64,000 nt of DNA, from assembly GCF_014189855.1 (NCBI RefSeq), contig NZ_BJFN01000003.1:124001-188000 (forward strand), written 5' to 3'. Below the pieces are notes generated by a model. It was not told where the DNA came from and made no database searches. It saw nothing but the letters and a program-made list of their open reading frames with translations. The position numbers and the translations under genes were made by a program. Origin of the DNA: Buttiauxella sp. A111 (GTDB lineage Bacteria; Pseudomonadota; Gammaproteobacteria; Enterobacterales; Enterobacteriaceae). Below, piece after piece: positions 4,969-43,079 of this stretch; position 1 is the stretch's first letter, and each line of letters opens with the position of its first letter.

Positions 4969-5880
4969 CTATTTAACGAAACCTTTCTGTTTCAGGTAAT
5001 CAGCAGCCACTTTCTTCGCATCCAGGCCGTCCACCGCAATGCTGGCATTAAGCTGTTGCAGGGTTTTCTCATCAAGCGAGGCAAAAACAGGTTTTAACCA
5101 TTCGCCCATTTCCGGATACGCTTTCAGAACGCTTTCACGTACCACAGGCGTTGGGGCATAAATCGGCTGCACGCCTTTTGGGTCGCTCAGAGTTTGCAAA
5201 CCGAGCGCGGCCACAGGTCCATCGGTACCGTAAGCCATGGCTGCATTGACACCCGAAGTTTGCTGCGCGGCAGCTTTAATGGTTACGGCAGTATCGCCCC
5301 CGGCCAGTGACAGCAATTGCGGCTGTTCGAGTTTAAAACCATAGGCTTTTTCAAAGGCAGGAAGTGCGTCGGAGCGCTCAATAAATTCAGCGGACGCCGC
5401 CAGTTTGAATTCACCGCCCTTTTTCAGATAAGCGCCGAGATCGTCAAGCGAGGTAAGTTTGTTTTTCTCAGCCAGGTCTTTGCGAACAGCGATGGTCCAG
5501 GTATTGTTCGCCGGAGCGGGGGTTAACCACACCAGATGATTTTTCTCAGCATCCAGTTTTTTGACTTTCTCATAGCCAAGTTGAGCGTTTTTCCAGGCAG
5601 GGTCGTTTTCATCTTTAAAGAAAAATGCCCCGTTACCGGTATATTCCGGGTAGATATCCAGTTCGCCCGCAGTAATGGCCCCGCGCACAACCGGAGTGGT
5701 CCCTAACTGGACTTTATTAACGGTTTTGACGCCGTGACTATCGAGCACCTGCAAAATAATATTACCGAGCAATGAACCTTCGGTATCGATTTTAGAACCC
5801 ACTTTCACGGGTTCTGCTGCCTGCACTCCTGCGGCCAACAACACTAATCCCGCCACACCCCAACGCGCTGATAAATTCAT
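4969..5880 (-). CDS. osmF: OsmF (YehZ), periplasmic binding protein for compatible solutes
   Basis: OsmF is the periplasmic substrate-binding protein of the importer; the E. coli protein binds glycine betaine only weakly. A Sec signal peptide covers roughly residues 1-22 ([21 protein letters not shown]), followed by the OpuAC-type domain with [24 protein letters not shown] and [12 protein letters not shown]. The ATG at 5880 was chosen because AGGA precedes it at normal spacing and the signal peptide starts there; a longer in-frame extension is not part of the family. The protein is 303 aa (E. coli 305). It is the first gene of the four-gene operon. Confidence 0.94.
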
Positions 5881-5977
5881 TATGCTTCCTCGCTGTTGTT
5901 CTCTCTTAAAAATCATGGAGTCGCAAAAGTTTAGCCGAAAATTAAGTGGTTGTGGGCGCATGGGGGGCAGAATAAGA

Positions 5978-6001
5978 AAAGGGCCGGTAAGCCGGCCCTT
6001 T
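5978..6001 (-). terminator. Rho-independent terminator after bglX
   Basis: A 10-bp stem (AAAGGGCCGG / CCGGCCCTTT) with a 4-nt loop is followed on the minus strand by TTTTCTTATT. It sits 32 bp beyond the bglX stop and separates bglX from the osmF operon. Confidence 0.85.
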
Positions 6002-6032
6002 ATTTGGAAAAAGGAAAAGTGGCTAGCGTGAA

Positions 6033-8330
6033 CTAGTTCAGTTCAAACTCGCCCTGTTTCACGCGAGCTGAATCCAGCCCAATAAACACATTGAATTTGC
6101 CTGGTTCAGCAACATGCTTCATCTGCGCGTTCCAGAACTTCAGTGCTTCAACGTCAATCGGGAAACTTACCGTCTGAGTTTCACCCGGTTTCAGCGACAC
6201 TTTCTTAAAGCCTTTCAGCTCTTTGACCGGACGACTCATTGAAGCGGTGACATCTCGCAGATACATCTGCACAACGGTTTCACCCTCGCGGTCGCCGGTG
6301 TTTTTCACTTCAACACTCGCTTCCACTTTGCCGTCAGCATTCATCGAAGGCGCAGACATTTTCACATCAGAAACGGTGAATGTGGTGTAGCTCAGGCCAT
6401 AACCGAATGGGAACAGCGGGCCGTTAGCTTCGTCGAAATAACGGGAAGTGTATTTGTTCGGTTTCTCCGGATTGTACGGACGCCCGGTATTTAAGTGGCT
6501 GTAGTACGTTGGGATCTGTCCGACAGAACGCGGGAAGGACATCGGCAATTTGCCTGAAGGGTTGTAATCGCCAAACAAGATATCAGCAACAGCGTTACCG
6601 CCTTCGGTGCCGCTATACCAGGCTTCCAGCAGTGCATCAGCCTGTTGATTTTCTTTGACCAGTGCCAGTGGGCGACCATTCATTAATACCAGAACTAACG
6701 GTTTGCCGGTCGCTTTCAGCGCGGCAATTAAATCGCGCTGGCTTTGCGGCAGGACGAGGTCGGTACGGCTGGAGGCTTCGTGCGCCATACCTTGCGCCTC
6801 GCCCACTACGGCAACCACCACATCAGCTGATTTCGCAGTGTTGACAGCTTCGTCAATCATCGCTTGGGCAGAACGGCTGTCGACACTCACCGCCGGCTCG
6901 TACTGGTTCAGGAATGCCACAATGTCTTTTTCGTCGGTGACGTTAGCGCCTTTGGCGACCACGATCTTAGCGTTGTCACCCACCGCATTTTTGATGCCCT
7001 GCAACACGGTAATGGTTTGATCGGCCACACCCGCAGCAGACCAGCTTCCCATCATGTCGCGTTTGCTATCGGCCAGCGGCCCCACCACGGCAATAGTGCC
7101 CGATTTTTTCAGCGGCAAGGTTTGCAGGCGGTTTTTCAGCAGAACCATACTTTCGCGTGCCACTTCACGAGCTTCTTTACGATGCAGGCGGCTTTCAGCG
7201 TTAGTATCTTCCGGGTCAGACTCTTTCGGCCCTAAGTGGCTGTAGGGATCATTAAACAGACCCATATCATATTTCACGTTCAGCACGTGACGCGTTGCGT
7301 CATCGAGTTCCGCCATCGGCACCGCGCCACTTTTCACAAGCTCAGGCAAGTATTTGCTGTAGTACTCATCGCTCATACTCATGTTGATGCCGGAATTCAG
7401 TGCGACACGCACCGCATCTTTCGGATCACTCGCCACACCGTGCTTGATCAGTTCTTTGATTGCACCGTGGTCAGAAATGGTGATGCCTTTGAATTTCCAC
7501 TCATCGCGCAGCAAATCTTTGAGCAACCAGGTATCCGACGATGCCGGTGTACCGTTCAGCGAGTTCAGCGCCACCATTACGCCACCGCTGCCCGCATCAA
7601 GCGCAGCTTTGTATGGCGGCATATAGTCGTTGAACAAGCGTTGGGTGCTCATATCCACGGTGTTGTACTCTTTGCCACCTTCGACCGCGCCATAGGCTGC
7701 GAAGTGTTTGACGCTGGTCATCACCGAGTAGCGTTCTGCCGGGCTTTTGCCTTGCATCGCTTCCACCATGGTGCGCCCCATGATTGAAGTCAGATAAGTA
7801 TCTTCACCAAATCCTTCAGACACACGGCCCCAGCGCGGGTCGCGGGAAACGTCAACCATCGGTGCCCACGTCATGTTCAGGCCATCGTCTGCGGCTTCAT
7901 AAGCAGAAACGCGCCCTACCGTTTTCACGGCATCCAGATTAAAGGATGAGGCTAAACCCAGGCTTATCGGGAACACGGTACGTTGACCATGCACGACATC
8001 GTAGGCGAAGAATAATGGAATGTGCAGACGGCTCAGGCTCATCACCTGGTCCTGCATGGCACGGATATCGTGGCGGGTTACGGTGTTGAAAATCGCCCCA
8101 ACCTGCCCGTCTTTGATCATCTCGCGAATGGCTTCTTTCGGGTTATCCGGCCCGACGCTGATTAACCGCAGTTGACCGATTTTCTCGTCAGTGGTCATTT
8201 GTTTCAGCAAATCGGTGACGAAGGCGTCACGTGCTTCTGGCGTTAACGGGTGCGGGCCAAACATTTCAGACGCTACCGCAGGTTGCAGCGCAAGGCTAAC
8301 TGCGAAACTTACAGAACAGAGCCATTTCAT
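6033..8330 (-). CDS. bglX: BglX, periplasmic beta-D-glucosidase (GH3)
   Basis: BglX is a family-3 glycoside hydrolase of the periplasm that cleaves beta-glucosides. The chosen start (8330, MKWLCSV) gives 765 aa, the E. coli length. AGAGAG lies 8 nt upstream and a signal peptide follows directly (to about residue 20). The (beta/alpha)8 domain holds the nucleophile motif TISDHGAIKEL, with KHFAAYG before it. The second alpha/beta domain (about 390-560) and a C-terminal fibronectin-like domain (from about 660) follow. The gene is divergent from dld across a 193-bp gap. Confidence 0.96.
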   Translation of the reverse strand: MKWLCSVSFAVSLALQPAVASEMFGPHPLTPEARDAFVTDLLKQMTTDEKIGQLRLISVGPDNPKEAIREMIKDGQVGAIFNTVTRHDIRAMQDQVMSLSRLHIPLFFAYDVVHGQRTVFPISLGLASSFNLDAVKTVGRVSAYEAADDGLNMTWAPMVDVSRDPRWGRVSEGFGEDTYLTSIMGRTMVEAMQGKSPAERYSVMTSVKHFAAYGAVEGGKEYNTVDMSTQRLFNDYMPPYKAALDAGSGGVMVALNSLNGTPASSDTWLLKDLLRDEWKFKGITISDHGAIKELIKHGVASDPKDAVRVALNSGINMSMSDEYYSKYLPELVKSGAVPMAELDDATRHVLNVKYDMGLFNDPYSHLGPKESDPEDTNAESRLHRKEAREVARESMVLLKNRLQTLPLKKSGTIAVVGPLADSKRDMMGSWSAAGVADQTITVLQGIKNAVGDNAKIVVAKGANVTDEKDIVAFLNQYEPAVSVDSRSAQAMIDEAVNTAKSADVVVAVVGEAQGMAHEASSRTDLVLPQSQRDLIAALKATGKPLVLVLMNGRPLALVKENQQADALLEAWYSGTEGGNAVADILFGDYNPSGKLPMSFPRSVGQIPTYYSHLNTGRPYNPEKPNKYTSRYFDEANGPLFPFGYGLSYTTFTVSDVKMSAPSMNADGKVEASVEVKNTGDREGETVVQMYLRDVTASMSRPVKELKGFKKVSLKPGETQTVSFPIDVEALKFWNAQMKHVAEPGKFNVFIGLDSARVKQGEFELN

Positions 8331-41973: not shown

Positions 41974-42168
41974 CTGCTCTCAGCCCTTTTGCAGCGCAGA
42001 CCGCAAAAAACCCTAAAATCTCTGTGCCGGCCCCAAAAAATATTTTTCAGCATTATTTTCACCCCTTTTTTACCTGCTAAAGGCACGCAATTTCTTATGA
42101 TCTTGCTCACGAATTGCGCATTCTCATGGAGCAGCCCGAAGACATTGCACCAAACCTATCTACGGCCA

Positions 42169-42185
42169 GGCACTGACACAGTGCA
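42169..42185 (+). promoter_or_regulatory. Predicted NtrC enhancer site
   Basis: GGCACTGACACAGTGCA matches the 17-bp NtrC pattern TGCAC-N7-GTGCA except for the first base. It is centred about 130 bp before the predicted sigma-54 start, a normal enhancer distance. A TGCAC half site lies at 42146. Confidence 0.6.
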
Positions 42186-42280
42186 TTCGGCTTTTCGAGT
42201 TGTAGATGGCGAAACTTTCCTCAACCTTTTTCATGAGCCTTTTCCCAAAGTTGCAATGTTCCAGCGCGCAAAAAGGTTAG

Positions 42281-42296
42281 TGGCAAGGGAATTGCA
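42281..42296 (+). promoter_or_regulatory. Predicted sigma-54 promoter of the urtE-like gene
   Basis: TGGCAAGGGAATTGCA fits the -24/-12 consensus TGGCACG-N4-TTGCA, with GG and GC exactly 10 nt apart. It points to the ATPase gene 73 bp downstream. The interval 41974-42368 contains no other recognisable gene. Confidence 0.7.
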
Positions 42297-42368
42297 CTGT
42301 TTTACTCGTCCTGGATCGCATAGCGGATGTTAATGCGCGTTCTTAACCCTGTCCGAAGGAGAGTATCG

Positions 42369-43079
42369 ATGTTGAGTCTGCGAGCTGTTAATCAGTTTTA
42401 TGGTGAAAGTCATATTCTGTGGAATCTGGATCTTGAGCTGACACCAGGCCAATGCACCTGTGTGCTGGGTGCACCTGGGATGGGTAAAACGACGTTGGTT
42501 AACTGCATCACCGGTTACTTGCCTGTTCAGAGTGGCAGTATGACCTGGCTTGAGGCTGGCCACCCTCCACAAGATTTACTGACGCAACCGATTGAAGGCA
42601 GAGCGGCGCTCGGGATGAGTTACGTCGCCCAGGACCGGCGGATATTTTCCCAGCTGAGCGTTGAGGAAAACCTGCAAATTGCACTGCTGGCGGCCCGTGA
42701 ACGGCCACGCGCTATCCCATCCATGATCTATGAACTGTTTCCTGAACTTTACAACTTGCGCCACGTGCGCGCAGGCGAGTTGTCGGGCGACCTTCAGCAG
42801 CAACTGGCATTAGCAAGGGCGCTAGTGACCGAACCAAAACTGCTGATTCTCGATGAACCCACTTTCGGTAGCGGTCAGCGTTTTATTCATGATCTCGGTA
42901 ATATTATTCGGCGGCTAAGCCGTGACTTTGGGCTGACTGTCCTGTTGGTCGAACAACGGTTGCCCTTTATTCGCCGTGTAGCCGACCGCTTCTGCTTGCT
43001 CCACCGTGGACGTAACGTCGCTCAAGGTCATGTCGCACAGTTAGATGACAAACTGGTTTCCAGTTGGATTGACCCATGA
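42369..43079 (+). CDS. Orphan UrtE-type ABC ATPase, probable remnant of a urea transporter operon
   Basis: The 236-aa protein resembles UrtE, one of two ATPases of the urea importer UrtABCDE (typical length about 230 aa). Matches include VNQFYGESHILW, RIFSQLSVEENL, a LLVEQRLPF H-region and VADRFCLLHRGR. None of urtA-D is in the window. Walker A is intact (GAPGMGKTT) but the signature is LSGDLQ instead of LSGGQ, and the D-loop area after LDEPTF is altered. GAAGGAGA precedes the ATG. The sigma-54/NtrC-type promoter upstream fits a urea or nitrogen operon. I infer a decaying remnant; recruitment to another transporter is possible. Confidence 0.78.
   Translation: MLSLRAVNQFYGESHILWNLDLELTPGQCTCVLGAPGMGKTTLVNCITGYLPVQSGSMTWLEAGHPPQDLLTQPIEGRAALGMSYVAQDRRIFSQLSVEENLQIALLAARERPRAIPSMIYELFPELYNLRHVRAGELSGDLQQQLALARALVTEPKLLILDEPTFGSGQRFIHDLGNIIRRLSRDFGLTVLLVEQRLPFIRRVADRFCLLHRGRNVAQGHVAQLDDKLVSSWIDP

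Follow-up and report, generated by a model that had tools for sequence, protein, structure and literature searches.

A stand-alone, UrtE-derived ABC ATPase with a lost ABC signature and a conserved NtrC/sigma-54 control region between uvrB and bioD in the Enterobacteriaceae

A single gene for an orphan ABC ATPase, lying between uvrB and bioD and behind an NtrC/sigma-54 control region, is best explained as an ancient UrtE derivative that now stands alone and may act as a nitrogen-starvation-induced, ATP-dependent regulatory or asymmetric subunit that tunes a partner (a reading to which we give a probability of roughly 0.55). The common origin of the orphan genes, their location, the promoter architecture, the purifying selection, the retained Walker A and B motifs and the lost ABC signature can all be read from the sequences themselves; the function that would connect them is a proposal. 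According to that proposal, a descendant of UrtE became established between uvrB and bioD at an early stage of the Enterobacteriaceae (in the GTDB sense) and was then maintained on its own, with a control region that would mark it for NtrC and sigma-54 RNA polymerase. The protein would bind ATP in its own P-loop, would be unable to supply the trans half of an ATP site to a second subunit, and would dock on a partner (an Urt or Liv (‘HAAT’) permease or nucleotide-binding domain (NBD) where one is present, and another protein elsewhere) in order to tune it during nitrogen starvation. Transport-linked and transport-free versions of such a partner-tuning cassette are both possible.

The gene was found in a window of 64,000 nt (the whole stretch of DNA that was analysed), and its features are collected in Table 1. 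An earlier note on this DNA had described a UrtE-like ATPase without urtABCD, and that description holds: the gene, its ATG preceded by AAGGAG, is alone on the plus strand after uvrB (minus strand) and before two small minus-strand ORFs and bioD, and the uvrB-bioD interval of the window contains no urtABCD. The top NCBIfam match of the protein is the UrtE model TIGR03410 at 233.5 bits, which does not reach the curated cut-off of 285.8, whereas the UrtE of the host genome itself scores 351.7 bits; the LivF model NF008626 gives 122 bits (cut-off 441), and the domain model PF00005 is matched at 84.2 bits (cut-off 25). An AlphaFold2 model predicts an ordinary NBD fold (mean pLDDT 92.6), and the nearest solved chain is 1ji0 (TM 0.90), which we take to be a LivF-like ATPase. 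The two small ORFs that separate the gene from bioD have no match in Pfam or NCBIfam; the shorter presumably resembles a HicA-like toxin, and the longer a partner with a DNA-binding motif. Within the source genus (L009-L019) the 173-aa ORF is found in 11/11 genomes and the 87-aa ORF in 10/11, and both are present also in L050-L053, L075 and L087.

Table 1. Features of the orphan ATPase gene, its control region and the small ORFs that follow it (coordinates are positions within the window).
Feature	Position	Strand	Remarks
Orphan UrtE-derived ABC ATPase, 236 aa	42369..43079	+	ATG at 42369, stop ending 43079
Possible second NtrC half-site TTGCACCAAAC	42145..42155	.	By eye kept in many alignment rows
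NtrC-type dyad GGCACTGACACAGTGCA	42169..42185	.	1 mismatch to TGCAC-N7-GTGCA
Sigma-54 -24/-12 element TGGCAAGGGAATTGCA	42281..42296	+	Strict match in 71/73 loci
Walker A, residues 34-42, GAPGMGKTT	42468..42494	+	Pattern in 73/73 loci
Lost ABC signature, residues 138-143, LSGDLQ	42780..42797	+	LSGGQ in 0/73 orphan loci
Walker B with catalytic Glu, residues 159-164, LILDEP	42843..42860	+	DEP in 72/73 loci
Divergent D-loop, residues 166-170, FGSGQ	42864..42878	+	Variable in orphans
Small ORF, 173 aa	43124-43645	-	Between ATPase and bioD
Small ORF, 87 aa	43660-43923	-	Between ATPase and bioD

The -24/-12 promoter proposed in the earlier note proved to be an exact sigma-54 site. Taken singly such a match is weak (three strict matches were observed in the window, against 1.34 expected), and it is therefore conservation across loci that counts. 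In the 71 loci of Table 1, that of the window among them, the gene is preceded within 450 nt by a strict TGGCM-N6-TTGCW, as compared with 27 of 7300 first-order Markov shuffles, although the 73 loci are not independent because they are related by descent; of the two that remain, L074 has its strict match further out, at -472, and L177 has a relaxed match at -63. Four of the 73 loci repeat a protein (leaving 69 distinct proteins), and the set leaves out L122, a Leclercia copy that looks broken and in which uvrB and bioD are fragmented as well.

The NtrC-type site that had been noticed further upstream is likewise a real dyad (the NtrC consensus being TGCAC-N7-GTGCA). Its start precedes that of the -24 element by 112 nt, and the distance of about 130 bp given for it fits if it is counted from the midpoint of the dyad to a transcription start placed by inference near 42306. 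When one mismatch is allowed, the dyad occurs within 450 nt in 59/73 loci versus 24/1460 shuffles; in a search to 650 nt, run without a shuffle control, 72/73 loci have a dyad with up to two mismatches 40-220 nt ahead of the promoter, and in 65 of these there is no more than one mismatch. The spacing between dyad and promoter falls into clusters near 81, 91, 101, 112, 123, 135 and 145; values of 57, 158 and 173 are outliers. A Rayleigh statistic on the 26 distinct spacings gives R 0.56 at 10.75 bp, the best of seven periods, with a p of about 0.0003 that is optimistic because the spacings include neighbouring values from related loci. The variation is mostly in steps of about one helical turn, as would be needed if the activator loops in from a single face of the helix. 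The sigma-54 element itself lies from 53 to 472 nt ahead of the ATG across loci, and these differing distances, together with the differing spacings, indicate that the region has largely turned over while the elements stayed. Both ntrC and rpoN are present in 5/5 genomes searched. The comparison thus supports a conserved NtrC/sigma-54 control region, which would mark the gene for nitrogen limitation.

That this promoter was inherited from a urt operon is unproven. None of six urt upstream regions (those of urtA in four operons of other families, and two places in the host genome's own operon) holds a strict sigma-54 match. Such an inheritance stays within reach because one of the regions, that of L040, has a near match at -59 (score 10, which 32/1200 shuffles reach), and because the passages available from a study of Klebsiella oxytoca suggest NtrC/sigma-54 control of urt and describe UrtABCDE as increased in nitrogen fixation (PMC8381380); the orphan ATPase gene is not named in those same passages.

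The coding sequence combines a preserved half of an ATP site with a dismantled one. The altered signature and D-loop pointed out in the earlier note are real: the corresponding positions of UrtE rows read LSGGQQ in 13/13 and E-G-I-Q-P in 13/13, and the signature position of the orphans is occupied by 48 different hexamers among the 69 distinct proteins. The Walker motifs are kept, the one locus without DEP being a metagenome assembly (L097). Residues that are both conserved and specific to the orphans (S94, Q95, A105, A108 and R131) are located in the Q-loop and helical subdomain, and a five-residue insertion at 64-68 sets the protein apart from nine UrtE rows. The signature of an ABC cassette works in trans, on the ATP of the other subunit; retention of the Walker motifs with loss of LSGGQ therefore suggests a protein that binds its own ATP and completes no site for a partner. 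For the same reason, an ordinary symmetric transport motor is, to judge from these motifs, an unlikely role.

The same note had read the altered motifs as a sign of relaxed selection, and this is correct for the signature and D-loop, which are the freer parts of the protein, and not for the gene as a whole. Across 55 pairs from 11 congeneric genomes the median dN/dS is 0.032 (by Nei-Gojobori count), a value that is approximate because dS approaches saturation in many pairs (median 1.5) and that nevertheless indicates strong purifying selection, which rules out relaxation over the whole gene. Mean dN is 0.0017 in Walker A, 0.0 in Walker B, 0.105 in the signature and 0.074 in the D-loop, as against 0.052 overall, so that the signature changes at about twice, and the D-loop at about 1.4 times, the whole-gene rate. 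A few copies evolve fast (branch lengths of 1.15 for L177, 0.76 for L028, 0.64 for L097 and 0.64 for L180); L177, from a 3.1-Mb genome (G180) without UrtB or LivF, may show decay in progress.

The distribution of the gene, which is carried by 84/246 genomes of the family (a carrier being defined by a best E below 1e-60, the weakest accepted being G180 at 1e-62), goes with that of urt, though not strictly. UrtB is present in 62/84 carriers and in 15/162 other genomes. Among LivF-positive genomes (E at most 1e-110), 61 have both the orphan and UrtB, 17 the orphan only, 15 UrtB only and 40 neither (Fisher p 5.6e-9). Ancestry was handled in these counts by a genus contrast only, over 133 LivF-positive genomes and 50 genera with two or more of them: where the orphan varies within a genus, UrtB varies in step in 4/5 genera (p 0.018), and in 10 other genera UrtB varies and the orphan does not. 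Urease or urea carboxylase is found in 75/84 carriers. Strict dependence on Urt is ruled out by the 22/84 carriers without UrtB, and strict dependence on urea catabolism by the nine of these that also lack urease and urea carboxylase. As a separate observation, one genome, G220, has two UrtB genes above cut-off about 36 kb apart (C1:1334037 and 1370418), perhaps marking two urt loci.

UrtB and LivF are both missing from five carriers, of which G014 and G139 contain a different permease of the HAAT type; a third, G180, has one weak UrtB-like match (2.4e-12) together with its fast-evolving copy and no strict promoter match. The remaining two, G126 and G232, belong to one genus, and both have an intact orphan gene with both promoter elements (L175 and L178) and a dN/dS of 0.043. 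At a threshold of 1e-8, G232 has no UrtB-like permease and G126 one weak partial match; the PF02653 permeases that they do contain (two in G126, one in G232) were taken to be of another type from those weak or absent UrtB scores. G232 is also without LivF, urease and urea carboxylase. Since this pair keeps the gene without a recognisable HAAT permease, no HAAT transporter seems to be strictly required, and, together with the 22 carriers without UrtB, the pair weakens the case for any single transporter partner; the fast-evolving G180 copy, with its missing strict promoter match, points the other way. That the gene was kept because it powers another importer, an alternative offered in the earlier note, is possible.

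Sharper versions of the preferred explanation, which overlap with it, can be weighed against these data. One, which we regard as possible though not favoured, is that a widespread enterobacterial nitrogen-starvation protein has left transport altogether, keeping only the cis ATP-binding half of its site and serving as a nucleotide-dependent switch on a partner. A related form, a soluble nucleotide switch that acts outside transport and binds another protein or a nucleic acid in nitrogen starvation, we consider doubtful: the intact gene, promoter and purifying selection in G126 and G232 and the free variation of the signature would suit it, but the protein still has the Q-loop and helical subdomain of an NBD that serves a transporter, and PF02653 permeases remain in both genomes.

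The same retained surfaces, where a permease would dock on an NBD, argue instead for an alternative NBD of the Urt or Liv importer, which would form a half-active heterodimer with UrtD or LivG in which the orphan Walker site pairs with the signature of the partner and the facing site of the partner is dead. The association with UrtB, both overall and within genera, and the frequency of urea catabolism among carriers are consistent with such a heterodimer. It is nonetheless equally doubtful, given the carriers that lack UrtB (among them the five without LivF), the intact gene of G232, the purifying selection in that genome and its relative, and the 10 genera in which UrtB varies without the orphan.

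With regard to descent, the UrtE ancestry claimed for the gene is borne out by the tree, which supports it as right but old. All 39 orphan rows (author-selected from the 73 loci) form a single clade (100/100), and its sister consists of eight UrtE rows from other groups, including Vibrio and Oceanospirillaceae (99/94). Under midpoint rooting, the family's own UrtE falls outside these two (100/99), and the orphans group with all UrtE rows at 99/96, as descent from UrtE predicts. Four of the sister rows (L038-L041) lie in operons of urtABCDE order that are followed by genes judged urease-like by eye; in L039, one UreD-like ORF follows before the contig ends.

The position of the gene is equally stable. 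Counting the window's own locus, uvrB is upstream in 63/63 loci and bioD downstream in 62/63 (L028 was assessed by way of L043, and in L058 the fetched DNA ends inside an insertion); ten more loci (L175-L184) entered the promoter count with their neighbours unchecked, apart from the ORFs of L177. Named carriers among the matches listed (at least 80 loci) include Klebsiella pneumoniae, K. michiganensis, Citrobacter portucalensis, Kosakonia, Phytobacter, Pantoea, Erwinia, Serratia and Rahnella, the closest of those listed being Dryocola boscaweniae at 85 percent. In E. coli K-12 the uvrB-bioD interval is 578 bp, contains neither the gene nor either promoter element, and can be aligned with carrier DNA on the uvrB side (76 percent over 433 columns against Citrobacter); a Citrobacter copy used as a blastn query at 1e-5 matched none of 5,426 E. 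coli genomes. A check for mobility returned 11 records of a plasmid collection at 1e-45, of which four also touch bioD (one record being chromosome-sized) and the other seven come from other genera; three of the records label the orphan only as an ‘ATP-binding cassette domain-containing protein’.

The earlier note had proposed that a deletion joined the promoter of a urt operon to its last gene at this site. The host genome contains a urt operon of its own, on another contig and beside urea carboxylase (UrtB and UrtE score above their cut-offs, and UrtA, UrtC and UrtD were assigned by ORF order), so that the orphan is an extra and not a last survivor. By spacing and ORF content, no uvrB-bioD interval examined holds urtABCD: most are too small for it, and the wider ones (L058, L077, L083, L084 and L043) hold other ORFs. 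A urt operon elsewhere and intervals without urt genes, as judged by spacing and ORFs, correspond to the first of the outcomes that the earlier note had named as counting against its proposal. The neighbours, the K-12 interval and the tree together rule out a recent deletion at the site, and the reading of the gene as a recent remnant is not supported. A decaying remnant of a urt operon is disfavoured and very improbable, since UrtE ancestry, loss of the signature, absence from E. coli, the long branches of L028, L097 and L180 and the fast-evolving L177 with its relaxed promoter match are outweighed by the low dN/dS, by frames of 235-244 aa with Walker A in 73/73 loci and by the conserved promoter. 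Among the wider intervals, those of L077 (Enterobacter sp. Bisph1, 5163-6493) and L058 have an insertion with small ORFs between the ATPase and bioD, one of which presumably resembles an Hcp-like type VI secretion protein; two Serratia loci (L083:4884-6515 and L084:4902-6572) have an ORF of about 550 aa there, and in a third, L085, bioD directly follows the ATPase gene.

Set beside known systems, the orphan shares with UrtE its best family match, sister clade, Walker A and B, Q-loop and length class, but is not filed as UrtE because the score cut-off, the operon context and the signature all fail; the lost D-loop, the insertion and the position behind NtrC/sigma-54 sites are further differences. 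LivF has the same fold, whereas LivF-like rows fall outside the UrtE-plus-orphan group (at the midpoint root). The ‘multitask’ ATPases of the MsmK type, for which a literature search returned nothing, are also encoded apart from the importers that they might serve, but they keep the ABC signature, whose LSGGQ is missing from all 73 orphan loci. Asymmetric ABC transporters have one degenerate ATP site, and a degenerate signature with intact Walker motifs would likewise leave a heterodimer with one working and one inactive site; unlike them, the orphan gene has no partner subunit or permease encoded with it.

No description of the orphan ATPase was found in the accessible portions of the literature searched, and PMC8743547 and PMC3844500 contained no matches to the terms used.

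Klebsiella, Citrobacter, Kosakonia, Pantoea, Erwinia, Serratia and Rahnella carry a gene that is likely to be under nitrogen control and that is absent from E. coli K-12, in which most of the work on enteric nitrogen control was done. A half-dismantled ATP site under strong selection would, in addition, serve as a natural experiment on the abilities of one ABC cassette that has lost its signature.
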